DNA from: Bradyrhizobium septentrionale
GTDB lineage: Bacteria > Pseudomonadota > Alphaproteobacteria > Rhizobiales > Xanthobacteraceae
Direction of reading: 5' to 3'
Assembly (NCBI RefSeq): GCF_011516645.4
Contig: NZ_CP088285.1
Coordinates: 9,318,501 to 9,382,500, forward strand
DNA length: 64,000 bases
Shown: positions 15,720 through 63,616 of the stretch, piece by piece
How positions within the stretch are numbered: position 1 is the stretch's first letter
How the letters are laid out: each line of letters opens with the position of its first letter
Translations under genes and position numbers: made by a program
The notes under the pieces: generated by a model
Seen by the model: only the letters and a program-made list of their open reading frames with translations
Told to the model about the DNA's origin: nothing
Databases searched by the model: none

Positions 15720-15835
15720 CGACCCGGCAATTTCTGCCGCCACACGGCAGTTTCGCGCGCCCTGGCGAACCGGAGGCGAATGGCGCGCCGACAATTTCGA
15801 TAAATATATCAATACATTGTGCCGATGAAGCGATG

Positions 15836-15850
15836 TGGCACGCCACTCGC
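15836..15850 (+). promoter_or_regulatory. Sigma-54 promoter of flgI
   Basis: TGGCACG-CCAC-TCGC differs from TGGCACG-N4-TTGC at one base, the same TCGC variant as at flgF. The spacing of the GG and GC doublets is correct. The predicted transcription start near 15862 leaves a leader of about 60 bases before flgI. Confidence 0.7.
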
Positions 15851-15920
15851 ATGGTTAATGGCGGATCGCCGTCATGGGAGTGTCGCGTGATCCGCGAGTT
15901 AGGTCTGAGGGGAGTTTGGG

Positions 15921-17045
15921 ATGCCTGGCATCCGGATCGCGCGTTTATTCGGGATGGCCTGCGCCGCACTGCTGGCGCTGGCGGCGTCCGCCATGCCTGC
16001 GGCCGCGACGTCGCGGATCAAGGATCTCGCCAACATCGAGGGCGTGCGCCAGAACCAGCTGATCGGCTACGGCCTCGTGGTCGGCCTCAACGGCACCGGC
16101 GACACGCTGAACAACATCCCGTTCACCAAGCAGTCGCTGCAGGCGATGCTCGAGCGCATGGGCGTCAACATCCGCGGCGCCACCATCCGAACCGGCAACG
16201 TCGCCGCCGTGATGGTCACGGGCAATCTGCCGGCATTCGGCACCCAGGGCACGCGCATGGACGTCACCGTCTCCGCGCTCGGCGACGCCAAGGATCTGCG
16301 CGGCGGCACCCTGCTCGTCACCCCGCTGCTCGGCGCCGACGGCAATGTCTACGCGGTGGCGCAGGGATCGGTGGCGGTCGCCGGCTTCGCGGCCGAAGGC
16401 GCCGCGGCCAGCGTCGTCCGCGGCGTGCCGACGGTCGGCCGTATCGCCAACGGCGCCATCATCGAGCGCGAGATCGAGTTCGCGCTCAACCGCCTGCCCA
16501 ATGTGCGCCTGGCGCTGCGCAACGCCGACTTCACCACTGCCAAACGCATCGCCGCCGCGGTCAACGACTATCTCGGCGTCAAGACCGCCGAGCCGATCGA
16601 CCCCTCGACCGTGCAGCTCTCGATCCCGCCGGAGTTCAAGGGCAACGTCGTCGCCTTCCTGACCGAAATCGAGCAGCTGCAGGTCGACCCCGATCTCGCG
16701 GCGAAGATCGTGATCGACGAACGCTCCGGCGTCATCGTGATGGGCCGCGACGTCCGCGTCGCCACCGTTGCGGTGGCGCAAGGCAATCTCACCGTCTCGA
16801 TCTCCGAAAGCCCCCAAGTCAGCCAACCCAATCCGCTGTCGCGCGGCCGAACCGTCGTGACGCCGCGCACCAGCGTCGGCGTCAGCGAGGACGGCAAGAA
16901 ATTTGCGGTCGTCAAGGACGGCGTCTCGCTGCAGCAGCTCGTCGACGGCCTCAACGGCCTCGGCATCGGGCCGCGCGACCTGATCAGCATCCTGCAGGCG
17001 ATCAAGGCCGCCGGCGCCATCGAAGCCGACATCGAGGTGATGTGA
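15921..17045 (+). CDS. flgI: Flagellar P-ring protein FlgI
   Basis: 374 residues with a Sec signal peptide (about residues 1-30, ending MPAAAT). The mature start SRIKDLANIEGVRQNQLIGYGLVVGLNGTGD is a hallmark of FlgI, as are FALNRLPNVRLALRNADF and the end DLISILQAIKAAGAIEADIEVM. It forms the periplasmic P-ring with FlgA help. It begins the flgI-flgJ-flgN-like operon; its stop shares one base with the next ATG. Confidence 0.96.
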   Translation: MPGIRIARLFGMACAALLALAASAMPAAATSRIKDLANIEGVRQNQLIGYGLVVGLNGTGDTLNNIPFTKQSLQAMLERMGVNIRGATIRTGNVAAVMVTGNLPAFGTQGTRMDVTVSALGDAKDLRGGTLLVTPLLGADGNVYAVAQGSVAVAGFAAEGAAASVVRGVPTVGRIANGAIIEREIEFALNRLPNVRLALRNADFTTAKRIAAAVNDYLGVKTAEPIDPSTVQLSIPPEFKGNVVAFLTEIEQLQVDPDLAAKIVIDERSGVIVMGRDVRVATVAVAQGNLTVSISESPQVSQPNPLSRGRTVVTPRTSVGVSEDGKKFAVVKDGVSLQQLVDGLNGLGIGPRDLISILQAIKAAGAIEADIEVM

Positions 17046-17401
17046 TGGCGAGCCTGATCAACAGCACCACGGGCAGCATGCCGAACAAGGCGTTGATGCC
17101 GATGTTCAACGGCCGCCCCGATCCCGTGCTGCAGGACGCGATGAAGAAGGTGTCGCCGCAGCAGATCACCAAGGCGAAGGCGACCGCGACCGATTTCGAA
17201 TCGATGTTCCTGAATTCGATGTTCTCGCAGATGACGACCGGCCTGAAGGGCGACGGCCCGTACGGCGACACCGTCGGCACCGGCGCCTGGCGGTCGATGC
17301 TGACCGACGAATATTCGAAGAATTTCGCCAAGGCCGGCGGCGTCGGCATTTCCAACGAGGTGTTCCGCTCGCTGATCCTGCAGCAGGCGAACAAGAGCTG
17401 A
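17045..17401 (+). CDS. flgJ: Rod-binding protein (FlgJ N-terminal type, also called CheL)
   Basis: 118 residues containing only the rod-binding domain: ATDFESMFLNSMFSQMTTGL, GPYGDTVGTGAWRSMLTDEY and GGVGISNEVFRSLI. The muramidase half of enterobacterial FlgJ is absent, as is usual in alphaproteobacteria, where a separate enzyme must cut the wall. The ATG overlaps the flgI stop by one base, so the two are translationally coupled. Confidence 0.9.
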   Translation: MASLINSTTGSMPNKALMPMFNGRPDPVLQDAMKKVSPQQITKAKATATDFESMFLNSMFSQMTTGLKGDGPYGDTVGTGAWRSMLTDEYSKNFAKAGGVGISNEVFRSLILQQANKS

Positions 17402-23478: not shown

Positions 23479-25356
23479 TCACGTGAGCTGCAGCAGCGCG
23501 TCGTACATCTGCTTGATCGACGACATCACGCGCGCATTGGCGGAATAGGCGTTCTGCAGCGAAAGCAGATGCGCCATCTCCTCGTCCATGTTGACGCCGG
23601 AGGTCGAGTCCATCTTGGTCTGCAGCGTGTTCAGCACGACGTCCTGGCCGTCGGCCAGTTGCTTGGCGGCGGTCGCCGACTCGCCCTGCTGGCTGATGAA
23701 CTGCTTGGCGAAGTTCAGCAGCGTGCCGGTGAACGGCGCGCCCGTGGTGCCAAGGCCGGTCTGCGGCGAATAGCTGTACGAGGCGTTCGACAGCTGGTTC
23801 AGGATCAGGTTGGCGCGCGTGGTGTCGCCGGCCGGGGTCTGCGGATTGGTCGAATAGATGACCATGCGCGAGGGATCGCCGACCAGCGCGGTGTTGACGC
23901 TGATCCGCGCGGCAAGGCCGGTGGTCTGCGAGCCGTTCGCGGTGATCGCGCCGGTGTAGAGCCCGCCATTGTCGGTGAACAGCGGAAGCTGCGGATCGCC
24001 CGATGTCAGCGACGAGACGGTTGACGTGACCGACGCCGCGGTCACGTCGGCCTTGTTGGCCGCGCCGTCGTCGAGCACGCGCAGCGTCGATCCGGACGGA
24101 TTGGAGAACTGCAGGCCGGTTCCGCCGAGCGCCCCGTTGAGCTGCGACAGCACCGAGCTCATGCCGCCGGAGAAATCCACTCCCAGGACCTCGTCGTTCG
24201 GATCGACGGTCGCGGTGTTGCTCAGTGGCAGCACGCTCGGATCGTCGACGCGGACGATCGACAGATTGTGCGTGAGGCCTGTGGTGTTGTCCTTGTAGGA
24301 GACGTGGATGGTATTGCCGCTCTGCAGTCCCGAGAGGTCGAGGTCGAAGCCGGACTGCGCCCCCGCCGTCGCGGCAGTGCCGGCGGTCGTCTTGTCCGAC
24401 AGCGCGCTCGACATCGCGGCGGCGAACTGCTCGATCTGCGTCTGCGCCTGCGCCAGCGTGTTGTCGCGCAGCTCGAGATAGGCTGCGATCTTGCCGGAGC
24501 GGATCGAGTTGGTCGACACCATGTCGTAGGTGCCGCCATGCGGGAACGTGATGGTGATGGTGCCGACGGTGCTCTTGGTCGGATCGGTATTGTACAGCGT
24601 GTTGGGCGTCATCGTGCCCTGGGCGTTGAAGCTGAGCGCCGCCGCCTCGGTGCCGACCAGCTGCACGCCGGAATTGGTGAACACGGTCACCTGGTTCTGG
24701 CTGTTGGTGACGGTGCGGATGTCCATCAGCTGCGAAAGCTGCGTGACATAGCGATCGCGCTGATCGAGCAAGGCCGCGGTCGACGCGTCGGCCGTGCAGC
24801 CATTGGCCTGCAGCTGGACATTGAGACGTGCGATCTGCTGCAGCGCGTTGTTGGCGGTGTTGATGGAGTCGCTGATGCCGGCCTCGGCGTTGGCGCGCAG
24901 CGTCTGGATGCCCTGCGAGGTCGCGTTGAGCTGCTGCGCCATCGATTGCGCGGCATTGACGACGCCGATGCGGGCCGATTGCGATTCCGGGCTGGTCGAC
25001 AAGCCCTGGACCGCGGTCAGGAATTTGTTGTAGGCGTCCTCGATCGTGCCGGTGGAGTCCGGATTGCCGTACACACCCTGCAGATTGGAAAGGAAATCCG
25101 AGCGGACGTCGGCGTAGGCCGCTCCCGAGGTCTCGGTGCGCAGCTGGGTCTGCAGGAATTCGTCGAGCTGGCGGTTGACGCCGGTGATGAGGACGCTCGA
25201 TCCGTACTGGCCGGTGGTGCCGGTGACCTGGTTGAGCGTCTTCCTGACGTAGCCGGGCGTCTCCGCGTTGGCGACGTTCGACGACACGAGCGAGAGCGAG
25301 GCCTGCGTGGCGCGCAGGCCCGACATCGCGGTGGAAAGGGCTTGGCCCAAACCCAT
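23479..25356 (-). CDS. flgK: Flagellar hook-associated protein FlgK
   Basis: 625 residues. MGLGQALSTAMSGLRATQASL, SNVANAETPGYVRK and the C-terminal EEMAHLLSLQNAYSANARVM are FlgK hallmarks. It forms the first junction layer on the hook tip. It lies 46 bases downstream of flgE and just before flgL on the same strand, with no promoter or terminator between. FlgN-like chaperone for it is encoded at 17424-17921. Confidence 0.95.
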   Translation of the reverse strand: MGLGQALSTAMSGLRATQASLSLVSSNVANAETPGYVRKTLNQVTGTTGQYGSSVLITGVNRQLDEFLQTQLRTETSGAAYADVRSDFLSNLQGVYGNPDSTGTIEDAYNKFLTAVQGLSTSPESQSARIGVVNAAQSMAQQLNATSQGIQTLRANAEAGISDSINTANNALQQIARLNVQLQANGCTADASTAALLDQRDRYVTQLSQLMDIRTVTNSQNQVTVFTNSGVQLVGTEAAALSFNAQGTMTPNTLYNTDPTKSTVGTITITFPHGGTYDMVSTNSIRSGKIAAYLELRDNTLAQAQTQIEQFAAAMSSALSDKTTAGTAATAGAQSGFDLDLSGLQSGNTIHVSYKDNTTGLTHNLSIVRVDDPSVLPLSNTATVDPNDEVLGVDFSGGMSSVLSQLNGALGGTGLQFSNPSGSTLRVLDDGAANKADVTAASVTSTVSSLTSGDPQLPLFTDNGGLYTGAITANGSQTTGLAARISVNTALVGDPSRMVIYSTNPQTPAGDTTRANLILNQLSNASYSYSPQTGLGTTGAPFTGTLLNFAKQFISQQGESATAAKQLADGQDVVLNTLQTKMDSTSGVNMDEEMAHLLSLQNAYSANARVMSSIKQMYDALLQLT

Positions 25357-52044: not shown

Positions 52045-52365
52045 TTAAGCTTGCCGCTCCGGCGTCGACACGACCAATCCGTCGAGGTCGTCGGTTACCT
52101 TGATCTGGCAGGACAGCCGCGAGTTCGGACGCACGTCGAAGCCGAAATCCAGCATGTCCTCTTCCATCGGCGACGGCGCGCCGACCTTCTCGCGCCAGGC
52201 TTCGTCGACATAGACATGGCAGGTTGCACAGGCACAGGCGCCGCCGCATTCGGCTTCAATGCCGGGAATCGCGTTACGGATCGCGCCTTCCATCACCGTC
52301 GCGCCGTTCTCGATATCAATGGAGCGTTTCTCTCCGGAATGGTCGATAAAGTGGATTTTGGCCAT
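52045..52365 (-). CDS. 2Fe-2S ferredoxin (adrenodoxin/FdxB type)
   Basis: 106 residues. The four cluster ligands are in [14 protein letters not shown] (C-x5-C-x2-C, residues about 40-49) and [15 protein letters not shown] (Cys near 86), the vertebrate-type/bacterial P450-class spacing. [15 protein letters not shown] matches the acidic partner-binding helix. It carries single electrons, probably from the reductase encoded at 50393-51421, to P450 or Fe-S enzymes elsewhere. Confidence 0.92.
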
Positions 52366-52526
52366 GATTGCTCGTGCTGCCGGAATGCGCCGGACGATGG
52401 TTGGAAAGGTCCCGGCAGTCGTATAACGGGTCGATCCGCACTGCGCTAGCGCGGAGACCGAAAACCTGCCGGCCGGCCCGGACGGGCGCTCAGGCCGCGG
52501 CGGCGGGCCGTAGAAGCGCTGTAGGG

Positions 52527-52904
52527 CTAGGAACGGCGCAGAATCAGCTCAATCGCCGTGCGCGCCTCGGCGATCGCAGCCCCGAGCGCAGCCAGCGGCT
52601 GGGCCGGATCGGAACCGCCGATCAGCGCGGTTTCGAGCTGGGCGGCAGCCTCGGCAACGCCGAATGCGCCGATCGCCCGCGCCGATCCTTTCAGGGTGTG
52701 GGCATGGGTCGCCGCCTCGGGCGGCAAGACAGCCAGCTCACCGAGGATCCGGGCGGACTGGGTCGAGAACATGGCCAGGACTTCCCGCTCCAGCCCCCGG
52801 TCGCCCAGCGTCATGCGCTGCAGGTGATCGAGGTCGATCGGCCCGTCGCCGGGCGCGAGCGGTGGCGATTGCGTCCATTCAACCCGTTCGAGATGAAGCG
52901 GCAT
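52527..52904 (-). CDS. Histidine phosphotransfer (Hpt) domain protein
   Basis: 125 residues from the ATG at 52904 (open further upstream without support). [20 protein letters not shown] begins the helical bundle and [20 protein letters not shown] is the Hpt phosphorylation motif, with His69 the likely site. It would move phosphate between response regulators. In this clade such single-domain Hpt proteins can serve the CtrA phosphorelay (ChpT is a different fold), but no partner is adjacent. Divergent from the giant gene at 53284. Confidence 0.82.
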
Positions 52905-53283
52905 GGCCTGTCCCTGTCGTCTCCGCCGGGTCTCGCCGGCGGCGCGTTGGCCAAGCCAATCACGAAACTGGTTAACGGATTGTTGTCGGGATGATCGGCA
53001 AAACCGCCCCATTCTGGACAATTTCTGGACACAATCGACGCGCTAACGCAGGAATTTCGAGTACCCATAAGGCCTTATGGCGCAAAGCTGTTAACGATGA
53101 TTAAGAAAGTATTAATCGCAAGCATTTCATTCGCATCGCTCAGCCAATAGGATGTTTGCGGATGTAGCGGACAAGCCGCCGAGGGGGGCGCTTGCCTCCG
53201 CTTGTGGGCACCGGCTTCGAGCTTGCGTGGGGACGATCGCAGGCTCGCCGACGCGTAAAATAGTGAGAGGGCTTGGACTGAAC
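52905..53283. other. Divergent control region between hpt and the giant gene
   Basis: 379 bases without a gene. It contains a direct repeat TTCTGGACA at 53013-53021 and 53024-53032 (11-base period) and three TTAA half-sites at 53091, 53101 and 53112. The ATG of the giant gene follows AGAGGGC. No hairpin terminator is present. Confidence 0.55.
53101..53115. promoter_or_regulatory. Perfect CtrA box upstream of the giant polar-protein gene
   Basis: TTAA-GAAAGTA-TTAA is an exact match to the Caulobacter CtrA consensus TTAA-N7-TTAA. Another TTAA starts ten bases earlier (53091), making a cluster of three half-sites. It is about 170 bases before the ATG at 53284 and about 200 before the hpt start, so either or both genes could be the target. 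Confidence 0.6.
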
Positions 53284-56200
53284 ATGGCGAACACTCCCAA
53301 GAAGGTCAAAGATCCCACCGAAGTCGCGCTTTCTGCCATCCAGGAAGCCCTCAACATCAGCGAACAGAGTGCGGAGAACCGCAGCTCCCTCAACGAAGGC
53401 GCCGCGCCGCCAAATCTGCCGCCGCCTGCGCCCGATTTTTCAGCTGCATCGTTGGATCAGCGTCCGAATGTCGATCGCCCGGCGTTCGAGCCGATCGAGG
53501 AGTCGCGCGCGCCGCGCCGCGCCGCCAACGATGATCGCGAGACCATCGGCCAGATGCTGCAGACGTTGCAGGGCGGCCGTTCCGCACGCAACGCCTTCAC
53601 GCTGTTCTTCGTCTGCTCCGGCGCCTGGCTGCTCGGCGGCGCGATCCTCACCATCGCCTTCTGGCCCGCGCTGCAGGCTTCGATGGCCCAGGGCACCGGC
53701 GTGCTGGTGCTCGCCGGCCTCGCCGCGCTGTTCGCCGTGCCGATCCTCCTGTTCTACTATCTCGCCAGCCTCGCCGCGCACGGTCAGCGCATGCAGATGA
53801 TCGCGCAATCGATGGCGCAGGTCGCAATGCGATTCTCCGAGCCGGAAAACGCCGCCGCCGATTCCATGGTGACGGTCGGTCAGGCGATCCGCCGCGAGGT
53901 CGCGGCGATGGGCGACGGCGTCGAGCGCGCGATCGCGCGCGCCGGCGAACTCGAGACGCTGGTTGCCAACGAAGTGGCGGCGCTGGAACGCGCCTATTCC
54001 GACAACGAAGTGCGCATCCGCGCGCTGCTGCAGGACATCGCCCACCAGCGCGACAATCTGGTCGGCCAGGCCGAGCAGGTGCGCAGCGCGATCTCCGGCG
54101 TGCAGATCGACCTGCGCCACGACATTGCGCTGATCTCGGACGCGATCGCCTCGCGCGTCGACGAGGTCGCCAAGAGCATCACCGGCGCGCTGGAAGAGCG
54201 CGGCCAGCACATCACGACGGCGCTGAGCCATGCCGGCGACAACATGATCCTCGCGCTCGGCGAGCGCGGCGGCGACCTGCTCGACCGCCTCGAGGAAGCC
54301 AGCGCCGAGACCACCCGCGCGGTGATGGACGCCTCCGAGCGGCTCACCACCAGCCTCAACTTCAAGACCGGCCACGTCCATGACGAGTTCGTCGATCTGG
54401 CCGATCGCGTCCACGAGATGCTGAACGAGCGTGTCGACCGCATCACCGGCGAGTTCGAGCAGCGTTCGTCTGCGATCGTCGACGGCATCTCCGACCGCAC
54501 CGAAGAGGTCCACGACTCCCTGAAGAACTCCGCGGACTCGCTGCTGCTGGAGCTCGAGCTGCGCAGCAACGACCTCGTCAGCAAGATCGACGACGCCGGA
54601 AACCGCCTCGCCGGCCAGATCATGACCTCCGGCGACAAGGCGAGCGAGGCGCTCGACGTCACCGTCAATTCGCTGGTCGCCAAGGTGGTGGGCCAGACCG
54701 AGACCGCACACGATTCGCTGTCGCTGCAGATGAGCGCGTTCGACGACCTGGTGAAGAACCACGGCAGCGAGCTCGCCGAGAAATTCGCCCGCGACTCCGG
54801 CACGCTCGGCGCACTGATTACCCGCCACATCTCGGAATTCGACCGCACCGTGAAGACCTTCGGCGGCGATATCGTCGAGCGCATGGGCCAGCGCACCCAG
54901 GACATCGCCGACAGCCTGAAGATCTATGTCGACACGTTCGACCATCGCGTCACCACCAACAGCGGCGACATCACCGCCTCGCTCGACCAGCGCCTGCTGC
55001 AGTTCGAGACCACGCTCGGCAGCCGCGTCACCAATCTCGACGCCTCGCTGAACGACAAGCTGTCGTCGTTCGACTCCTCGCTCGCCAGCAAGATCGGCTC
55101 GTTCGACGGCCGTCTGCAATCGCTGGATGACACTATCGACGGCCGCATGAGGACGCTCGAAGTCACCTTCGAGAGCCGCGCCAAGTCGGTCACCGACACC
55201 ATCGACGGCCATCTCGGCACGCTCGCGACGCAACTCACCGAAGGCGCCACCCAGGCGATCCAGTCGATCGACTCGCGGCTCGGCCTGCTCACCACGACCC
55301 TGACCGAGGGCACGGTGCAGGCGATCGCCGCGGTCGACCACCGTATCAACGGCGTCACCGAGACGATCGACGGCCACAGCATCCGGCTTGCCGACACCAT
55401 CAACGGCCACAGCACCCGCCTCGCCGAAACCATCGACGGTCACAGCACTCGCCTCGTCGAGACCATCAGTGGTCATAGCTCGAACCTGACCGACACCATC
55501 ACCGCGCGCTTCACCGATATCCGGCAGGGCATCGAGAGCCGCGTCGGCGTCATCGCCGGCGACATCGACACCCGCGTCGCGCAGTTCGAGGACCTGCTGG
55601 GCTCGCGCGTCGAGGCCGTCGCCGGCCGCATCGAGAGCAGCGGCCGCCAGGCGAGCGAGGACCTGATGTCCCGCGCCGAGCTGTTGTCGTCGAGCATCAA
55701 ATCCCATGTCGAGGACGCCGAGCGCTCGCTGACCAACCTCGTGGTCAACACCAGCGAGACGATCCAGACCGGCGCGCGCACCGCTCAGCAGGCGCTGCTC
55801 TCAGTGTCTTCGGACGTCGGCAACCAGCTCAAGCAGAGCTCGGCCGAGGTCGAGAGCGTGCTGACTGCCGTCGGCACCAGCGCCGCCAATTCGATCCTCA
55901 CCAGTGCCCGCGACGCGCAGGTCTCGCTGGTCTCCGCCTCCGGCGACGTCGCCTCCCAGATCAAGGCGCTGTCGGAGGATGTCGAGCGCACGCTGCAGGC
56001 CGCCGGCAGCGCCACCGCAGCCTCGGTGCTGTCGGGCGCCCGCGACGCGCAGACCACGCTGGTCTCGGCGTCGGCCGAGGCCGCCAGCCAGGTCAAGTCG
56101 CTCGCCGCCGATGTCGAGCAGTCGCTGTCGATGTCCGGCTCTGCCGCCGCCGAAGCGATCATGACCGGCGCGCGCGAGGCCCAGACCACGTTGATCGCGA

Positions 56201-59200
56201 CATCGACCGACGTCACCGGCCAGGTGAAGTCGCTCGCCAGCGACGTCGAGCGCTCGCTCTCGATGGCCGGCAGCGCGACCGCGGAAGCCGTCGTCGCCTC
56301 CGCCCGCGAGGCCCAGAGCACGCTCGCCGGCGCCTCCACCGAAGCCGCCAATCTAGTGCGCACGCTCGCGGCCGACGTCGAGCACTCGCTCTCGACCGCC
56401 GGCACCGCGACCGCGGAAGCCGTCGTCGCCTCCGCCCGCGAGGCCCAGAGCACGCTCGCCGGCGCTTCCACCGACGCCACCAATCTGGTCCGCACCCTGT
56501 CGGCCGACATCGAGCGCTCGCTGTCGATGGCCGGCACCGCCACCGCGGAAGCCGTCGTCGCCTCCGCCCGCGAGGCCCAGAGCACGCTTGCCGGTGCGTC
56601 CACCGAGGCCACCAATCTGGTCCGCACCCTGTCGGCCGATATCGAGCGCTCGCTTTCGATGGCCGGCACCGCCACTGCGGAAGCCGTCGTCACTTCCGCC
56701 CGCGAGGCCCAGAGCACGCTTGCCGGTGCGTCCACCGAGGCCACCAATCTGGTCCGCACGCTCGCGGCCGATATGGAACGCTCGCTGTCGATGGCCGGCT
56801 CGGCCACCGCGGAATCGATCACGTCAGGTGCGCGTGAAGCCCAGAGCATGCTGGTCAGCGCATCCGCCGAGTCTGCGACACAGGTGACGGCGCTTGCCGC
56901 CGACATCCAGCGCGTGCTGTCGATGGCCGGCAGCGGCACCGCCGAGGCGCTGACCGCAGGTGCCCGCGAGGCGCAGAACACACTGGTCAGCGCGGCGACG
57001 GACGCCGTCAACCACGTCAAGTCGCTGGCCGTCGATGTCGAGCGCACCCTGACGGCGGTCGGCACCAACACCGCCCAGTCGATCCTGGGCAGCGCCCGCG
57101 ACGCCCAGAACTCGTTCGTGGCAACGTCCAGCGAGACCGCAAGCCAGATCCGCGCGATCTCCGCCGAGATCGAGCGCTCGCTGACCACGGCCGGCGCGGA
57201 GACCGCGCAGACCGTGCTGGGCAGCGCCCGCGAGGCCCAGAGCTCGTTTGCGTCAACCTCGGCCGATGCCGCCGCCCAAATCCGCACGCTCTCGACCGAT
57301 ATCGAGCGCGCGCTGGGTGCGGTCACGGCCAAGACCACCGACAACATCCAGACGTCGGCGCAGAACGCGCAGGCCGCGCTGATCAACATGTCCAACGAGG
57401 TCTCGACCAAGGTCAAGACGACCTCCGCCGACATCGAGCGCTCGGTGCTGTCGGCCTCCAGCGCGTTCGGCTCGGCGATGACCGGCAAGACCGACGAGAT
57501 CGTCACCTATGTGCAGCAGCAGACCGAGCGCCTGTCGCAGATCGTCGACGGCCGCCGCGGCTCGCTGGTCGAGGCGCTGACCGCCAAGACCACGCAGCTT
57601 GCGACCGACATGGATCGCGCCACTGCGGATGCGCTGAAGGCGATCGAAACCCGCGGCCTCGCCTTCTCGCAGTCGATGTCGGCGCACGGCGGCGACGTCG
57701 CGCGCAACATCACCTCGGCCGGCGACCAGGCGACCGGCGCGGTGGCGAAGTCGCTCAAGGAGCTCGAGCAGGCCTCTCGCGCGGCGATCGATCAGTCGCG
57801 CCAGGTCTCGATCTCGGCCGTCACCGAGATGCAGGAGACCAGCAAGATCCTGCGCACCGATACGGTCGCGCTGTTCGAGCGGCTGCGCGAGGGCAACATC
57901 CTGCTGCAGGAAGTGTTGACCGGCGCCCACGACAACCTCAACTCGCTGGAGCGCGCGCTGGTGACCCGCGTGGCCGACTTCGTGTCCGCCATGAACGACG
58001 TCACCTCGCGCAACGGCGTGGCGACCCAGACGCTGGAAGACCAGCTCACGGTGTTCAACAGCAAGACCGGCAAGGCGCTGGAAGATCTCGGCGCGTTGTC
58101 GAGCGAGTTCGAGACCCATGGCAAGGCGCTGATCGACGCGGCTGCCGTGGTCGAGCAGGCCAACCGCTCGACGACGGCCTCCGTCAGCGAGCGCAAGTCG
58201 GCGCTGGAATCGCTGGTCACCACCATCGACCTGCGCACCACCGATCTCGACCAGCGGCTGTCGCGCTTCACCGGGCTGCTCGATGAATCGCTGGCCGCGG
58301 CCGAGGAGCGCGCCCGCGACATCGCACGCGTGGTGGCGGAGACCGCAGGCGCCGGTTCGGCGGCGATCAGCAAGCAGTTCGAGGCGGTGCGCATGGCGGC
58401 CGAGAACGAGCGTCAGCAGACCGTCGACGCCATGAACGACCTCTACCAGCAGAGCAACGCCGAGACCGATGCGATGTTCAAGGACTCGACGGAGAAGTTC
58501 TCCGCGATGGTCACGGCGATGAAGCAGATGGCGAGCGAGATGCACAACGAGCTCGAGGCCACCCGCAACGAGCTGCGCCGCGGCGTGCTCGAAATGCCGC
58601 AGGAGGCCGCCGAGAACACCGCGCAGATGCGCAAGGTGATCGTCGACCAGATCGAGGCGCTGGCCGAACTGAACCGCATCGTCGCCCATCACGGCCGCGG
58701 GCTCGACGTCGTCAGCACCAACCGCGCCAGCGTCCGCCACGAGGAGCCGGTGATGGCTGCCGCCGGCGGCCGCGGCGACGTCCGGATGCGGGACAATGGC
58801 AACAGCGCCGCGACGCTGCCGCCGCCCGATCTCGGCATGGCGAGTTCGCGCCGCACCGAGGCCCCGTCGGTCAGCCCGGCAAGCCCCAACAACAACAACG
58901 GCGACGGCTGGCTGTCCGACCTGCTTAACCGCAGCGACGCGCCGCCGCCGGCGCAGCCGAGCCGCGAGGCCCAGCGCCCGCGTCCGCAGCAGCAGCCTGC
59001 CGCCAATCCGCTGGAGTCGCTGTCGCTCGACATCGGCCGGCTGATGGACCGGACGCTTGCCGCCGAGATGTGGGATCGCTACCAGCGCGGCGAGAACAAG
59101 GCGTTCAGCAAGCGCCTCTACACCCCGGCCGGCCAGAAGGCCTTTGATGAGGTGGCCCGCAAGTACCGCGCCGACCGCGGCTTCAAGCAGACGGTCGACC

Positions 59201-59340
59201 GCTACATCGCGGAGTTCGAGCGGCTGCTCGACGAAGTCGCCCGCGAAGGCCGCGGCCAGCAGGAGCTGGCTGGCCACCTGACCTCGGAGACCGGGCTGGT
59301 CTACACCCTGCTCGCACATGCCGCGGGACGGCTGGGGTAA
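53284..59340 (+). CDS. Giant membrane-anchored coiled-coil repeat protein, Growth Pole Ring (GPR)-like
   Basis: 2,018 residues. A disordered Pro-rich N-terminus is followed by two membrane helices (about 103-127 and 137-160) with a very short loop, then about 1,650 residues of alpha-helix in 11-residue periodicity. Residues about 694-737 are four 11-mers (TIDGHSIRLAD type); residues about 823-1394 are 13 units of 44 residues (AREAQSTLAGASTEA core). A Pro/Gln linker leads to a conserved-looking C-terminal domain (LESLSLDIGRLMDRTLAAEM, YRADRGFKQTVDRY). Size, two N-terminal helices and apolipoprotein-like repeats match GPR of Agrobacterium (Atu1348), which organises polar growth. The homology is inferred from architecture. 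The ATG at 53284 fits the start MANTPKKVKD. Confidence 0.88.
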   Translation: MANTPKKVKDPTEVALSAIQEALNISEQSAENRSSLNEGAAPPNLPPPAPDFSAASLDQRPNVDRPAFEPIEESRAPRRAANDDRETIGQMLQTLQGGRSARNAFTLFFVCSGAWLLGGAILTIAFWPALQASMAQGTGVLVLAGLAALFAVPILLFYYLASLAAHGQRMQMIAQSMAQVAMRFSEPENAAADSMVTVGQAIRREVAAMGDGVERAIARAGELETLVANEVAALERAYSDNEVRIRALLQDIAHQRDNLVGQAEQVRSAISGVQIDLRHDIALISDAIASRVDEVAKSITGALEERGQHITTALSHAGDNMILALGERGGDLLDRLEEASAETTRAVMDASERLTTSLNFKTGHVHDEFVDLADRVHEMLNERVDRITGEFEQRSSAIVDGISDRTEEVHDSLKNSADSLLLELELRSNDLVSKIDDAGNRLAGQIMTSGDKASEALDVTVNSLVAKVVGQTETAHDSLSLQMSAFDDLVKNHGSELAEKFARDSGTLGALITRHISEFDRTVKTFGGDIVERMGQRTQDIADSLKIYVDTFDHRVTTNSGDITASLDQRLLQFETTLGSRVTNLDASLNDKLSSFDSSLASKIGSFDGRLQSLDDTIDGRMRTLEVTFESRAKSVTDTIDGHLGTLATQLTEGATQAIQSIDSRLGLLTTTLTEGTVQAIAAVDHRINGVTETIDGHSIRLADTINGHSTRLAETIDGHSTRLVETISGHSSNLTDTITARFTDIRQGIESRVGVIAGDIDTRVAQFEDLLGSRVEAVAGRIESSGRQASEDLMSRAELLSSSIKSHVEDAERSLTNLVVNTSETIQTGARTAQQALLSVSSDVGNQLKQSSAEVESVLTAVGTSAANSILTSARDAQVSLVSASGDVASQIKALSEDVERTLQAAGSATAASVLSGARDAQTTLVSASAEAASQVKSLAADVEQSLSMSGSAAAEAIMTGAREAQTTLIATSTDVTGQVKSLASDVERSLSMAGSATAEAVVASAREAQSTLAGASTEAANLVRTLAADVEHSLSTAGTATAEAVVASAREAQSTLAGASTDATNLVRTLSADIERSLSMAGTATAEAVVASAREAQSTLAGASTEATNLVRTLSADIERSLSMAGTATAEAVVTSAREAQSTLAGASTEATNLVRTLAADMERSLSMAGSATAESITSGAREAQSMLVSASAESATQVTALAADIQRVLSMAGSGTAEALTAGAREAQNTLVSAATDAVNHVKSLAVDVERTLTAVGTNTAQSILGSARDAQNSFVATSSETASQIRAISAEIERSLTTAGAETAQTVLGSAREAQSSFASTSADAAAQIRTLSTDIERALGAVTAKTTDNIQTSAQNAQAALINMSNEVSTKVKTTSADIERSVLSASSAFGSAMTGKTDEIVTYVQQQTERLSQIVDGRRGSLVEALTAKTTQLATDMDRATADALKAIETRGLAFSQSMSAHGGDVARNITSAGDQATGAVAKSLKELEQASRAAIDQSRQVSISAVTEMQETSKILRTDTVALFERLREGNILLQEVLTGAHDNLNSLERALVTRVADFVSAMNDVTSRNGVATQTLEDQLTVFNSKTGKALEDLGALSSEFETHGKALIDAAAVVEQANRSTTASVSERKSALESLVTTIDLRTTDLDQRLSRFTGLLDESLAAAEERARDIARVVAETAGAGSAAISKQFEAVRMAAENERQQTVDAMNDLYQQSNAETDAMFKDSTEKFSAMVTAMKQMASEMHNELEATRNELRRGVLEMPQEAAENTAQMRKVIVDQIEALAELNRIVAHHGRGLDVVSTNRASVRHEEPVMAAAGGRGDVRMRDNGNSAATLPPPDLGMASSRRTEAPSVSPASPNNNNGDGWLSDLLNRSDAPPPAQPSREAQRPRPQQQPAANPLESLSLDIGRLMDRTLAAEMWDRYQRGENKAFSKRLYTPAGQKAFDEVARKYRADRGFKQTVDRYIAEFERLLDEVAREGRGQQELAGHLTSETGLVYTLLAHAAGRLG
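55363..55494 (+). repeat. Four 33-bp (11-residue) tandem repeats inside the giant gene
   Basis: The units begin at 55363, 55396, 55429 and 55462 and encode TIDGHSIRLAD, TINGHSTRLAE, TIDGHSTRLVE and TISGHSSNLTD. They show directly the hendecad unit of which the later 44-residue repeats are four-fold multiples. Confidence 0.85.
55753..57468 (+). repeat. Thirteen 132-bp (44-residue) in-frame tandem repeats
   Basis: The Ala codon of the A-R-E/D-A-Q core recurs at 55774, 55906, then every 132 bases to 57358. The four units beginning with GCGGAAGCCGTCGTC at 56281, 56413, 56545 and 56677 are nearly identical over more than 45 bases each, while outer units are diverged. The period equals four 11-residue turns. 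Confidence 0.9.
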
Positions 59341-59369
59341 GCTGAGTGGCGAATAGCGAGTAGCGAATG

Positions 59370-59399
59370 AAAAACGGAGACCGAAAGGTCTCCGTTTTT
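59370..59399. terminator. Bidirectional terminator after the giant gene
   Basis: AAAAACGGAGACC-GAAA-GGTCTCCGTTTTT is a perfect 13-bp stem including the A and T tracts, 30 bases after the stop. It works in both directions in principle. Confidence 0.88.
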
Positions 59400-59456
59400 G
59401 CTTGGGGCGGCGGCCGCTGAGTCTCGCCGTGGAAAGGCGCTCCGGTGTTAGCCGGC

Positions 59457-59543
59457 GTCATTGCGAGGAGCGCAAGCACGAAGCAATCCACGCAACAGCG
59501 AGTCGAGAGATGGATTGCTTCGCTTCGCTCGCAATGACTGGTG
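59457..59543. repeat. Intergenic inverted-repeat element
   Basis: The ends read GTCATTGCGAGGAGCG and CGCTCGCAATGAC, and further in GAAGCAATCCA pairs with TGGATTGCTTC. It is a palindromic element of about 87 bases between convergent genes, flanked by GCGAGTAGCGAAT-type short repeats at 59350-59369 and 59562-59582. Confidence 0.7.
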
Positions 59544-59588
59544 TGTCAGACTGGAGCGCTACTCGCTACTCGCCATTCGCCGATCACG

Positions 59589-60458
59589 TCACTGCCGCCG
59601 CCGCGGTCCGGGTGCTGCGGCCGGAGCCGGCGCGGGTTCGGGTGCGGCGTTGTTGCTGCCGCCGAAGATCACCCGGCTCGGGTTGCGGTCGAAATTGTTC
59701 ACGGCGCGGCTGATGTCGGAGAGCGTGCGGCGGCCGTCGGTGATCAGGGCGGTGGAGCGCTTGTCGAGATCCTCGGCGAGCTCGCGGATCGACTTCACCA
59801 TCAGGTTCAGCTCGCTGCCGCTGTTGCCGCCGGCGATCGCATTGAGGCCCAGCATCAGACTGTCGGCCTTGCCCATCACGCCGTCGACCTTGAGCATGAC
59901 GTTGTCGATCTTCTCGGAATTGCGCGCCAGCGCCTGGGTGAAGACCTCGAGGTTCTTCAGCGAATTCTTCACCGACTGCTGATTGTCGGCGACGATGCGG
60001 TTGACGTTTTGCAGCGTGGCGCGGATCGCCTCGGTGACGTCCTGCAGCGCATTGGGGTCGGCGGTCAGAACCGGGATGCCGTCCTCGTCGAGCGGCACCG
60101 GCGGAGCGGCCTCCTCGCCGCCCTTCAGCGAGATCGCGGCAACGCCGGTGAGGCCCTGGAATTCGAGACCGACCAGGGTGTCCTTGCGGAGCGGCGCGTT
60201 GTTCTCGATCATCGCCAGCGCGACCACGCGCCGCGGGTTGTCGAGCTTCACCGAGACCACTTCCCCTATCCGGATACCGTTAAAATTGACATTGCCGCCA
60301 TTGCGGAGGCCCGATGCCGGTCCCTCGAAGATTACCCGCAGGGGGCTGCGCTGCTTGGTGGTGTGCAGGCTCTGGAACCACAGCACGAAGCCGAACGCGG
60401 CGGCGATCACCGCCAGCGTGAAAGCCCCGATCAAGACGTAGTTCGCCCGCGTTTCCAT
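59589..60458 (-). CDS. MCE/MlaD-family lipid transport protein
   Basis: 289 residues. METRANYVLIGAFTLAVIAA gives an N-terminal membrane anchor, followed by the MCE domain (VIFEGPASGLRNGGNVNFNGIRIGEVVSVKL, then GVAAISLKGG) at about residues 40-120. A long helical part and an Ala/Pro tail ending PGPRRRQ follow. In the Mla system MCE hexamers form the periplasmic ring or channel for phospholipid movement. Last gene of mlaE-mlaF-mlaD order; 106 bases and a family A repeat separate it from the ATPase gene. Confidence 0.92.
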   Translation of the reverse strand: METRANYVLIGAFTLAVIAAAFGFVLWFQSLHTTKQRSPLRVIFEGPASGLRNGGNVNFNGIRIGEVVSVKLDNPRRVVALAMIENNAPLRKDTLVGLEFQGLTGVAAISLKGGEEAAPPVPLDEDGIPVLTADPNALQDVTEAIRATLQNVNRIVADNQQSVKNSLKNLEVFTQALARNSEKIDNVMLKVDGVMGKADSLMLGLNAIAGGNSGSELNLMVKSIRELAEDLDKRSTALITDGRRTLSDISRAVNNFDRNPSRVIFGGSNNAAPEPAPAPAAAPGPRRRQ

Positions 60459-60520
60459 CAATCACTCCTGAGCTCTCGCGCAGTCAGCCTGCGTTCGAGC
60501 CCGTCGAATTCCCTGTTGGC

Positions 60521-60564
60521 GCATGATCTCGTCCGAAAACCGGTCTCCTCGCTTCGGGATCATG
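60521..60564. repeat. Family A palindromic repeat, copy 4
   Basis: GCATGATC ... GATCATG with a core CCGAAAACCGGTCTCC. It is located between the ATPase and MCE genes of one operon, the only copy found inside an apparent operon. Confidence 0.7.
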
Positions 60565-60566
60565 GG

Positions 60567-61337
60567 CTAGGCCACAACGGCACGGGCGCGCTTGCCGTTG
60601 AAATATTGCTGCAGCCATGGATGCTGCGATGCCTTCATGTCGGCAATCGATCCTGCAGCAATGATCTTACCGTTCCCTAAAACGGCGATACGGTCGCACG
60701 CGGTGTAAAGACTGTCGAGATCGTGGGTTACCATGAAAACGGTCAGCCCCAAAGTGCGCTGCAGGGTGCGCACCAGCTCGTCGAAATCGCCGGCGCCGAT
60801 CGGATCGAGGCCTGATGTCGGCTCGTCGAGAAACACCAGTTCAGGATCGAGCGCGAGTGCGCGCGCCAGCGCGACGCGCTTGATCATGCCGCCGGACAAT
60901 TCCGACGGGTAGCGATCGGCGACCTCGGGCTTCAGCCCGACCATCACCAGTTTCGCCACCATGATCTCGTCGAGCAGCCGCTGCGAGACGCGCAGATACT
61001 CGCGCGCCGGAAACTGGATGTTCTGGCGCACCGTAAGCGAAGAGAACAGCGCGCCCTGCTGGAACAGGATGCCCCAGCGCCGCTCGACCGCTCGGCGCTG
61101 CGCCGAGCTCGCAGCATCGAGATCGACGCCGAACACTTCGATGCGGCCGGAGACCTTCGGCACCAGGCCGATGATGGTGCGCGTCAGCACCGACTTGCCG
61201 GCTCCCGACGGACCGACGAAGCCGAGGATCTCGCCGCGCTTGACGTCGAGGTCGAGGCCGTCGAGCACCCGCGTCTTGCCGAATTGAACGGTAATGTCGC
61301 GGACCCGGATGATGGCGTCGTCGCCTTGCTCGGCCAT
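60567..61337 (-). CDS. ABC transporter ATPase, MlaF type
   Basis: 256 residues from the ATG at 61337; a GTG two codons earlier overlaps the permease stop. Walker A GPSGAGKSVL, Q-loop LFQQGALFSSLTV (the QQGALF form is typical of MlaF), signature LSGGMIKRVALA, Walker B LVFLDEPTSGLDP and H-loop THDLD are complete. It powers the Mla/MCE phospholipid transporter. It follows the permease gene with coupled stop and start. Confidence 0.94.
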   Translation of the reverse strand: MAEQGDDAIIRVRDITVQFGKTRVLDGLDLDVKRGEILGFVGPSGAGKSVLTRTIIGLVPKVSGRIEVFGVDLDAASSAQRRAVERRWGILFQQGALFSSLTVRQNIQFPAREYLRVSQRLLDEIMVAKLVMVGLKPEVADRYPSELSGGMIKRVALARALALDPELVFLDEPTSGLDPIGAGDFDELVRTLQRTLGLTVFMVTHDLDSLYTACDRIAVLGNGKIIAAGSIADMKASQHPWLQQYFNGKRARAVVA

Positions 61338-61339
61338 GG

Positions 61340-62473
61340 TCACATCCCGATCGCAGCGAAGAAGATCGCGAACACGCCGTCCATCACGATCACGAAGAAG
61401 ATCCCTTTCACCACCGAGGCGGTGGTGTGCTGACCGAGCGACTCCGCCGAGCCCTGCACCGCCAGCCCCTCGACGCAGGCGACGATGCCGATCACCGCCG
61501 CCATCACCGGTGCCTTGACCATGCCGACGACGAAATGGTCGATCGATATGGCATCACGAAGGCGGAGCAGGAAGGCTTCCGGATCGACGCCGCCATAGAG
61601 CCAGGCCACAAGCCCGCCGCCATAGAGCGCAGCCATCGCGCCGAGGAAGGCCAGGATCGGCAGCGCCAGCACCAGCGCCAGCATGCGCGGCAGGATCAAG
61701 ACCTCGATCGGATCGAAGCCCATGGTGCGCAGCGCGTCGATCTCCTCGCGCATCTTCATCGAGCCGAGCTCGGCGGTATAGGCCGAGCCGGAGCGGCCCG
61801 CGACCATGATCGCGACCAGCAGCACGCCGATCTCGCGCAGCACCAGCACGCCCAGCATGTCGACGACGAAGATGTCGGCGCCGAACCTGCGGAAATGGAA
61901 GATGCCCTGCTGCGAGATGATGCAGCCGATCAGGAAGGTGATCAGCACCACGATCGGCACCGCGCGCCAGCACACCTGCTCGAGGTGATGCACGGTCGAG
62001 GTCAAACGGAAGCTGCGCGGATGGATCAATACTTTGCCGGCGGCCGCTATCACGGCACCGAGCATGTCGACCAGGCCGACGATCGTGCCCCCGACACCGG
62101 CCACGGTGCGGCCGATCTGCTCCAGCATGCCTGAGATCGACAGCGGATCGCTTGCGATGCTGGGCGCTGCGCCGACGCGACGGACCTCGTCGACCAGGCT
62201 GGAATAGTTGGCGGAGAGGCCCGCGATCTCCGCCTCCGCAGAAGCGTTGCTGAGGCTGCGGCGCAGCCGCTCGATCAGCCATGCGCCGAACGTATCGAGG
62301 CTCGCGACCTGCGACACGTCGATGAAGATGTGCGGGCGGCTGCCGCGCAGCTTCTCGGCGTCGGAGACGATCCGCTCGAGCGCAGGGGCAAAGCGGGCGG
62401 TCCAGTTGCCCGCCGCGCACAACGCCAGTCCTTCGCCTTGGGCTATCCGCTCCAGTGTCGGGTCGCCGCTCAC
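61340..62473 (-). CDS. MlaE-type permease with N-terminal STAS-like domain
   Basis: 377 residues. Residues about 10-100 form a STAS-like domain (HIFIDVSQVASLDTFGAWLIERL), which in other bacteria is a separate protein, MlaB. The rest is MlaE: IVVLITFLIGCIISQQGIFH, GVLVLREIGVLLVAIMVAGR, SAYTAELGSMKMREEIDALR, and five or six helices. The start is GTG at 62473 after GAGGGGTAGG; the frame is open far upstream but that is antisense to the epimerase gene. First gene of the operon, diverging from the epimerase gene. Confidence 0.9.
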   Translation of the reverse strand: MSGDPTLERIAQGEGLALCAAGNWTARFAPALERIVSDAEKLRGSRPHIFIDVSQVASLDTFGAWLIERLRRSLSNASAEAEIAGLSANYSSLVDEVRRVGAAPSIASDPLSISGMLEQIGRTVAGVGGTIVGLVDMLGAVIAAAGKVLIHPRSFRLTSTVHHLEQVCWRAVPIVVLITFLIGCIISQQGIFHFRRFGADIFVVDMLGVLVLREIGVLLVAIMVAGRSGSAYTAELGSMKMREEIDALRTMGFDPIEVLILPRMLALVLALPILAFLGAMAALYGGGLVAWLYGGVDPEAFLLRLRDAISIDHFVVGMVKAPVMAAVIGIVACVEGLAVQGSAESLGQHTTASVVKGIFFVIVMDGVFAIFFAAIGM

Positions 62474-62614
62474 CTTTTGCCTACCCCTCGAAGCCGGCTG
62501 GCCGTTACAACGCAGATATCCGGCACTGCCGGATCGGCTTGTCGAATCTGCCACTAACCAGCCATAGTTGGTTGCGCGTCGCAAGCTACGGTTCAGGAAA
62601 TAGTAGACTTTAAA

Positions 62615-63616
62615 ATGACTTCCACCCCATCCCGAGCTATTTCCCTTAACGTGGGGATCGAGCGCTGGCCGATCGCAGGGACCTTTACGATCAGCCGCGG
62701 CGCCAAGACCGAGGCCGTTGTCGTGGTGGCCGAGGTGAGCCAGGGCGGTCTCATTGGCCGCGGCGAATGCGTGCCCTACCCGCGCTATGGCGAAACGCCT
62801 GAGGCGACGCTGCAAGCGATCCAGGCGATGCAGGAACCGCTCGCCGGCGGCATGGACCGGATTGCCCTGCAGGCCCGGATGCCCGCCGGCGCCGCCCGCA
62901 ATGCGCTGGATTGCGCACTGGCGGACCTCGGGGCCAAACGCGCCGGTACGCGGATCTGGAACCTGCTGGGACGGCCGGCACCGGAGCCCCGCACCACCGC
63001 CTACACGATCTCGCTCGGAACGGCGGAGGCGATGGCCGAGGCCACCGCGAAGGCCGCACACCGCGCGCTGCTCAAGATCAAGCTCGGCGGCGATGGCGAC
63101 GGCGCACGGATCGCCGCCGTGCGCAAGGCGGCGCCGGCATCCGAACTGATCGTCGACGCCAATGAAGCCTGGACCGAGCACAACCTTGCCGCCAATCTCG
63201 CGGCCTGCGCCGACGCCGGCGTCACGCTGATCGAGCAGCCGTTGCCGGCGGGCAAGGATGAGGCGCTGGCGCGGATCAAGCGCCCGGTTGCGGTCTGCGC
63301 CGACGAGAGCGTGCATGACCGCGCCTCGCTTGCGGGCCTGCGCGACCGCTATGACGCCGTCAACATCAAGCTCGACAAGACCGGCGGGCTGACCGAAGCG
63401 CTGGCGATGGCGGATGCCGCAAGCGCGCTCGGCTTCGAGATCATGATCGGCTGCATGGTGGCGACCTCGCTTGCGATGGCGCCGGCGATGCTGATCGCGC
63501 AAGGCGCGCGCTTCGTCGATCTCGATGGCCCGCTGCTGCTCGCGCGCGACCGCGACAACGGCCTGCGCTACGAGGGCAGCCTGGTCTACCCGCCGGACGC
63601 CGCACTTTGGGGCTAA
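62615..63616 (+). CDS. Enolase-superfamily dipeptide epimerase (L-Ala-D/L-Glu epimerase type)
   Basis: 333 residues. The capping domain (RWPIAGTFTISRGAKTEAVV, GRGECVPYPRYGET) precedes the barrel with Lys pair in LLKIKLGG, metal ligands in LIVDANEAW, LIEQPLP and VCADES, the second base in VNIKLDKTGG, and the DxD motif near the end as VDLDGPLLL, typical of dipeptide epimerases. It recycles or edits cell wall peptides such as L-Ala-D-Glu. Its last four bases overlap the convergent MFS gene. Confidence 0.9.
   Translation: MTSTPSRAISLNVGIERWPIAGTFTISRGAKTEAVVVVAEVSQGGLIGRGECVPYPRYGETPEATLQAIQAMQEPLAGGMDRIALQARMPAGAARNALDCALADLGAKRAGTRIWNLLGRPAPEPRTTAYTISLGTAEAMAEATAKAAHRALLKIKLGGDGDGARIAAVRKAAPASELIVDANEAWTEHNLAANLAACADAGVTLIEQPLPAGKDEALARIKRPVAVCADESVHDRASLAGLRDRYDAVNIKLDKTGGLTEALAMADAASALGFEIMIGCMVATSLAMAPAMLIAQGARFVDLDGPLLLARDRDNGLRYEGSLVYPPDAALWG

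Follow-up and report, generated by a model that had tools for sequence, protein, structure and literature searches.

The closest described relatives of the protein considered here are GPR of Agrobacterium fabrum C58 (Atu1348), for which a ring has been reported in Agrobacterium, and RgsE of Sinorhizobium meliloti, and depletion of these proteins disturbs pole growth and shape (PMC8262873, PMC7327166). GPR has two published membrane domains and a Pro-rich region and is viewed as folding into bundles like those of apolipoprotein A-IV (PMC8262873). It organizes the polar growth of a bacterial group in which the usual machinery of elongation is missing, and a PDB sequence search listed no solved GPR structure and apolipoprotein A-IV alone. 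We analyzed a 64,000-nucleotide stretch of the Bradyrhizobium septentrionale genome (contig NZ_CP088285.1, positions 9,318,501 to 9,382,500; hereafter the window, to which all positions refer), in which an open reading frame at 53284..59340 (+) encodes a 2,018-residue protein. Taken as a whole, the evidence is best explained, with a probability that we put at roughly 85%, by a Bradyrhizobium orthologue of GPR and RgsE (gpr/rgsE), a membrane-anchored rod of 11-residue (hendecad) repeats that would serve as a scaffold at the growing pole. The conserved quantity in this rod is its 11-residue phase and not its length. The protein is a further member of a known family; because RgsE homologues have already been reported in all Rhizobiales families (PMC7327166), membership as such is not new.

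Orthology is carried by the two ends of the protein. Residues 1-270 are 44% identical to A. fabrum GPR and 38% to RgsE, residues 1890-2018 are 51% and 55% identical, respectively, and these end alignments reach z 42-66 against shuffled sequences (for GPR, 66 at the N-terminus and 42 at the C-terminus). A first-pass annotation of this DNA had proposed a GPR counterpart, a proposal that would fall if the resemblance were confined to generic coiled coil; the aligned non-repeat ends and a common upstream gene order, with divergent ferredoxin and Hpt-domain genes in the window, Agrobacterium and S. meliloti, uphold it. All three proteins score against the apolipoprotein profile PF01442 (173.5 bits for the window protein with a cut-off of 90, 171.9 for GPR and 257.8 for RgsE), and GPR shares the hendecad rod, the conserved N-terminal block and the C-terminal domain. 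The systems differ in the best autocorrelation lag of the rod, which is 22 residues in GPR and 22 and 11 in RgsE as opposed to 88 and 44 in the window, and in the genes downstream, where the 6 kb examined beyond GPR held no Mla match and RgsE is followed by transposase and cytochrome rather than Mla genes in CP090106.1. The GPR reference frame (L141), taken from a genome with 9,000 bases identical to the C58 plasmid pAt, encodes 2,115 residues from its second ATG, and the RgsE reference (L137, CP090106.1) encodes 2,089; both are the published lengths. The latter sequence is a 3.7 Mb S. meliloti replicon labelled plasmid pSymB that bears rgsE, folP and cytochrome c1 genes, and the label is probably wrong.

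The gene is present in a single copy, as the protein was its own sole match in the 10.4 Mb genome. Among named records, the best matches come from Bradyrhizobium, in support of the genus. An in-frame upstream ATG at 53152 would lengthen the reading frame, but the orthologue P0045 begins with the same MANTPKKVKDPTEVALSAIQEALNI as the 2,018-residue protein. Of 199 genomes of the order, 194 have exactly one match to the C-terminal domain, and the long loci were examined for a subset of the 199. Excluded before the counts given below were five sequences with no C-terminal match (L007, L032, L039, L040 and L046) and three with no N-terminal match in the same frame (L041, L077 and L123); the GPR frame is apparently split in L041 and L077, where the N- and C-terminal matches lie in separate open reading frames. 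Of the 350 and 546 matches in the protein-database searches, the best 120 each were evaluated, and the longest of these had 1,935 residues, so that GPR and RgsE themselves are not among the matches listed.

The anatomy of the protein confirms what had first been noted, namely two N-terminal membrane helices, a long helical repeat, a Pro/Gln linker and a distinct C-terminal domain. Hydropathy identifies two hydrophobic segments, residues 103-134 and 132-167, as in the membrane-helix feature of GPR and RgsE, which together form a membrane hairpin (residues 103-167; 53590..53784). This is followed by a conserved block defined by alignment (168-310; 53785..54213), a continuous hendecad rod without proline defined by periodicity and composition (311-1480; 54214..57723), a distal helical region (1481-1740; 57724..58503), a Pro/Gln/Ser-rich linker with approximate limits (about residues 1800-1895; 58681..58968) and a C-terminal helical domain (1909-2018; 59008..59337), all on the plus strand. 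The helical-repeat core thus covers about 1,560 residues, from about 181 to 1740. AlphaFold2 predicts the C-terminal domain with confidence as a bundle of helices (mean pLDDT of 83.5), and comparison with the PDB gave no significant relative.

Within residues 186-1840 all ten of the highest autocorrelation lags are multiples of 11 (z 10.5 to 29), with 88, 44, 22 and 11 leading, and hydrophobic residues recur every 3.665 positions with a power of 111 compared to a maximum of 8.3 across 20 shuffled sequences. Followed in blocks of 130 residues, the 11/3 phase shows only a gradual drift over 311-1480; the blocks 181-310 (period 3.58) and 1481-1740 (3.58-3.62) fall outside the pure 11-residue phase. 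In residues 831-1420 lag 44 reaches z 36.6 with 57% identity, and, read in steps of 44 residues, an unbroken series of exactly thirteen Ala-rich units (809-1380; 55708..57423, +) scores z 5.9 to 16.5 against the unit consensus, which was built from eight of the thirteen so that the scores of those eight are partly by construction. The flanks of this array are weak (765-808, z 3.6; 1381-1424, z 4.3). The count of thirteen copies agrees with the first-pass annotation. At the DNA level, tandem repeats of period 132 span 55892-57315. Three of the eleven hendecad positions hold 65% of the large hydrophobic residues (V, I, L, M, F, Y and W), giving the narrow seam characteristic of coiled coils.

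The further suggestion that the thirteen copies form a fixed length ruler was rejected. Among 72 close orthologues from Bradyrhizobium, Rhodopseudomonas and near kin, the array ranges from approximately 6.2 to 14.1 units (estimated from lag-44 identity, a measure that gives 11.2 units for the window compared to 13 by unit-by-unit scoring) and protein length from 1,710 to 2,134 residues, while rod length spans 439 to 2,285 residues over the 52 members of the order that were measured; since both rod length and copy number vary widely, a fixed length is not conserved. Nor is the 44-residue period unusual within the genus and its near kin, where 44 is the best lag in 70 of 72 proteins (the window, whose own best lag is 88, being counted among the 72); it is less common elsewhere, being the best lag in 4 of 53 orthologues, which belong to four families. 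The common property is the multiple of 11, which the best lag obeys in 121 of 125 orthologues.

Length changes almost always obey the same rule. Alignment of 36 disjoint pairs from the Bradyrhizobium set gave 53 gaps within the rod, of which 49 are multiples of 11, as opposed to none of 110 outside it, and in 19 disjoint pairs from the genus Agrobacterium (38 of its 39 genomes, G612 with its short frame being left out) such multiples make up 26 of 29 rod gaps and 0 of 43 elsewhere. When all nearest-neighbour pairs are used, which are not disjoint, multiples of 11 account for 158 of 172 gaps in the rod and 2 of 369 elsewhere. Gaps of at most 10 residues occur once in 53,507 rod residues of the Bradyrhizobium set and 106 times in 16,278 residues outside the rod. 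The window's ten nearest relatives illustrate the pattern, with four having no rod gap and five being short by exactly one 44-residue unit (one of these with an extra 11); the remaining one, L009, has rod gaps of 11 and 89. An origin of these multiples in the aligner was rejected, because randomly planted out-of-phase deletions were recovered as new out-of-phase gaps in 107 of 108 runs and because three gap-penalty settings gave similar results in the Bradyrhizobium set (49/53, 48/50 and 49/53) and in Agrobacterium (26/29, 24/27 and 26/29), with none outside the rod each time. A limited literature search, with the original GPR paper (PMC6561148) lying outside it, returned no work joining hendecads, coiled coils and indels and a single paper, on Gram-positive proteins, that brings hendecads together with polar growth; terms beginning with repeat, hendecad, periodic, ruler or synteny do not occur in the main text of PMC8262873. 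We claim novelty for the phase result only against that limited search.

In our reading, the rod is an uninterrupted and almost straight hendecad coiled coil and not a set of folded apolipoprotein-like bundles. Hendecads have almost no supercoil and their dimers favor alanine in the core (PMC9858780), and it is on this ground, together with the Ala-rich array, that a straight coiled-coil rod is proposed. The Streptomyces proteins Scy and FilP offer a parallel, with long hendecad rods (Scy exceeds 1,000 residues, almost all in hendecads), an Ala-rich core and a link to poles and to division (PMC9858780). They differ in having an N-terminal DivIVA-like motif of their own, and a Pfam scan of the window protein to E 0.01 listed Apolipoprotein only and no DivIVA, so that the likeness is one of working principle. 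In the proposed architecture the hairpin would hold the N-terminus in the inner membrane and leave both ends cytoplasmic, the core would oligomerize as a coiled-coil rod, and a flexible Pro-rich linker would connect this to the small C-terminal domain, which most likely docks partners. By analogy with published work on GPR and RgsE, the protein would then form a ring at the growing pole and act there as a scaffold localizing wall and membrane synthesis. The rise of a helix is 0.15 nm per residue, which gives a computed length of approximately 176 nm for residues 311-1480 and would give approximately 234 nm for the full core of about 1,560 residues if completely extended.

Several observations weigh against this reading. 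In one alternative, the helical part would double back on itself to make short, apolipoprotein-like bundles that bind lipid. This is the published view of Agrobacterium GPR, based on domain deletions and SWISS-MODEL bundles (PMC8262873). It gains from the 173.5-bit PF01442 score of the window protein and from apolipoprotein A-IV structures 9hx4 (E 2e-5) and 3s84 (7.8e-5), which match within residues 336-608 and are the sole PDB sequence matches at E of at most 0.001. The phase also has exceptions, with off-phase rod gaps of 89, 26, 19 and 8 in the Bradyrhizobium set and 80, 29 and 18 in Agrobacterium, and the limited literature search yielded no experiment on the protein in Bradyrhizobium. Gap 89 is one residue off phase, and gaps 8, 19 and 26 are plain exceptions. 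The remaining four of the 125 orthologues (L117, L118, L120 and L121), all of one genus, have a best lag of 29 and a strong lag of 36, with rod gaps of 29, 36 and 65 among the three complete members; we read these repeats as 11+11+7 and 11+11+7+7, as occurs in coiled coils, a pattern that speaks against bundles. Since any number above 59 is a sum of 11s and 7s, gaps of 65, 80 and 89 are uninformative by that measure, and only 18 and 29 in Agrobacterium and 29 and 36 in the L117 genus favor coiled-coil stutters. Apolipoproteins A1, A4 and E consist of helical 22-mers punctuated by proline. The window protein shares the 11/22-residue helical periodicity of apolipoprotein A-IV and its significant profile score, but has no proline in residues 311-1480, a narrow seam, a membrane hairpin and far greater length, and we ascribe the PF01442 and A-IV matches to the common periodicity. 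PMC8262873 further argues for folding from foci of 50 nm as compared to 600 nm for an extended helix. However, 1,700 residues at 0.15 nm each give a computed 255 nm, which makes the size argument weaker than stated, and as the paired foci come from N-terminal GFP fusions (PMC8262873) and mark the membrane end, they are compatible with an extended rod. Overall, folding into bundles appears unlikely.

Neutral slippage could also have expanded the 44-residue array without structural meaning, since units in 985-1160 are nearly identical (each shares 38 to 43 of 44 residues, and 118 to 125 of 132 nucleotides, with the next), copy number differs among relatives, and slippage between repeat units would by itself yield steps of 11, 22 or 44. 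Such an origin does not account for the scarcity of small gaps in the rod relative to its surroundings, which shows which changes are not tolerated and indicates selection against phase change; slippage may supply the whole-hendecad steps, but as a complete explanation we regard it as improbable. Least credible of all is the view that this long coiled-coil protein has a role unconnected with polar growth. In its favor, the C-terminal domain was matched in 112 genomes out of a sample of 289 from the class (108 of the 112 lie outside the order), all 20 of the outside relatives that were followed up (L223-L242) have MreB above the model cut-off, and distant homologues are assigned a possible different role in PMC7327166. 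Of these 20 relatives, 14 match the N-terminal profile as well, rods are below 1,000 residues in 14 (measured from the end of the N-terminal profile, or from residue 150 if there was none, to the start of the C-terminal domain) and 13 have a best lag of 25 (7+7+11); four (L223, L224, L225 and L235) retain Hpt and Mla neighbours. Against an unrelated function are the orthology and gene order that the window protein has in common with GPR and RgsE.

If the rod is indeed phase-locked and variable in length, out-of-register changes should break it and in-register ones be tolerated, which bears on the published GPR domain deletions of residues 232-494 (263 residues) and 1036-1381 (346 residues) (PMC8262873). 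Neither length is a multiple of 11 (the remainders are 10 and 5), and less function was left by the second deletion than by the first. The greatest interference came from the A-IV-4cc deletion, whose size is variously given as 20, 21 or 22 residues (PMC8262873), an effect that speaks against a simple phase reading. A phase-locked rod would also imply that rod length tracks ring or cap geometry across species. We tentatively extend this to the possibility, which we hold to be doubtful but worth stating, that GPR is a straight, phase-locked hendecad rod rather than an apolipoprotein, with length evolving in 11-residue quanta, and that a short membrane-anchored ancestor lengthened, perhaps after loss of MreB, into a spacer setting the geometry of the growing pole. 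The window's own genome has no MreB above the model cut-off, which fits polar growth, and MreB exceeded it in 9 of 55 members of the order examined (absence in draft genomes can also be an assembly gap). Rods longer than 1,000 residues occur in none of 9 MreB-positive and 32 of 43 MreB-negative members (52 measured; Fisher 4.6e-5). On a tree of GPR ends, the long rods fall in 31 rows of one 32-row clade (support 89, not starred) and in L148, and an independent-pairs test of rod length and MreB found three pairs on starred branches and had no power. The association is therefore close to one event and remains a lead, and six sampled relatives outside the order that combine rods above 1,000 residues with MreB stand against it.

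The gene lies in a conserved neighbourhood (52045-63616) with the order ferredoxin, Hpt, GPR, MlaDFE and DgcA. Upstream and divergent are genes for a 2Fe-2S ferredoxin-like protein (52045..52365, -; best NCBIfam match fdx_isc, 62.7 bits, under its cut-off) and an Hpt-domain protein (52527..53021, -; Pfam Hpt, 38.2 bits). Convergent downstream, profile matches identify an MlaD/MCE protein (59589..60461, -), an MlaF-like ATP-binding protein (60567..61343, -) and an MlaE-family lipid ABC permease whose start codon is not fixed (61340..62419, -), followed by DgcA, N-acetyl-D-Glu racemase (62615..63616, +; NCBIfam equivalog, 487 bits). Ferredoxin and Hpt genes are both present in 73 of 73 loci of the Bradyrhizobium/Rhodopseudomonas set. 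In 54 loci outside the Bradyrhizobium set, where contig-end-cut loci were scored as misses and several loci come from one family, a divergent upstream ferredoxin gene was found in 46 and Hpt in 41, and convergent downstream MlaD, MlaF and MlaE in 23, 25 and 22, three of the MlaF matches being weak and possibly other ABC transporters. DgcA immediately follows GPR (~30-120 bp) in five loci from four families. This conservation raises the possibility of a link of GPR to genes for envelope lipids or for D-Glu and murein peptides. Three long open reading frames lie antisense to the gene on the minus strand (53440-55707, 55785-57506 and 57253-59319; 755, 573 and 688 residues), with no evidence that these overlapping frames are genes. 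Elsewhere, the window carries flagellar features, including a flg-Rhizobiales RNA at 647-792 (114.8 bits), a reading frame encoding a rod-binding protein domain at 15833-17401 and an FlgK-like protein at 23479-25356.

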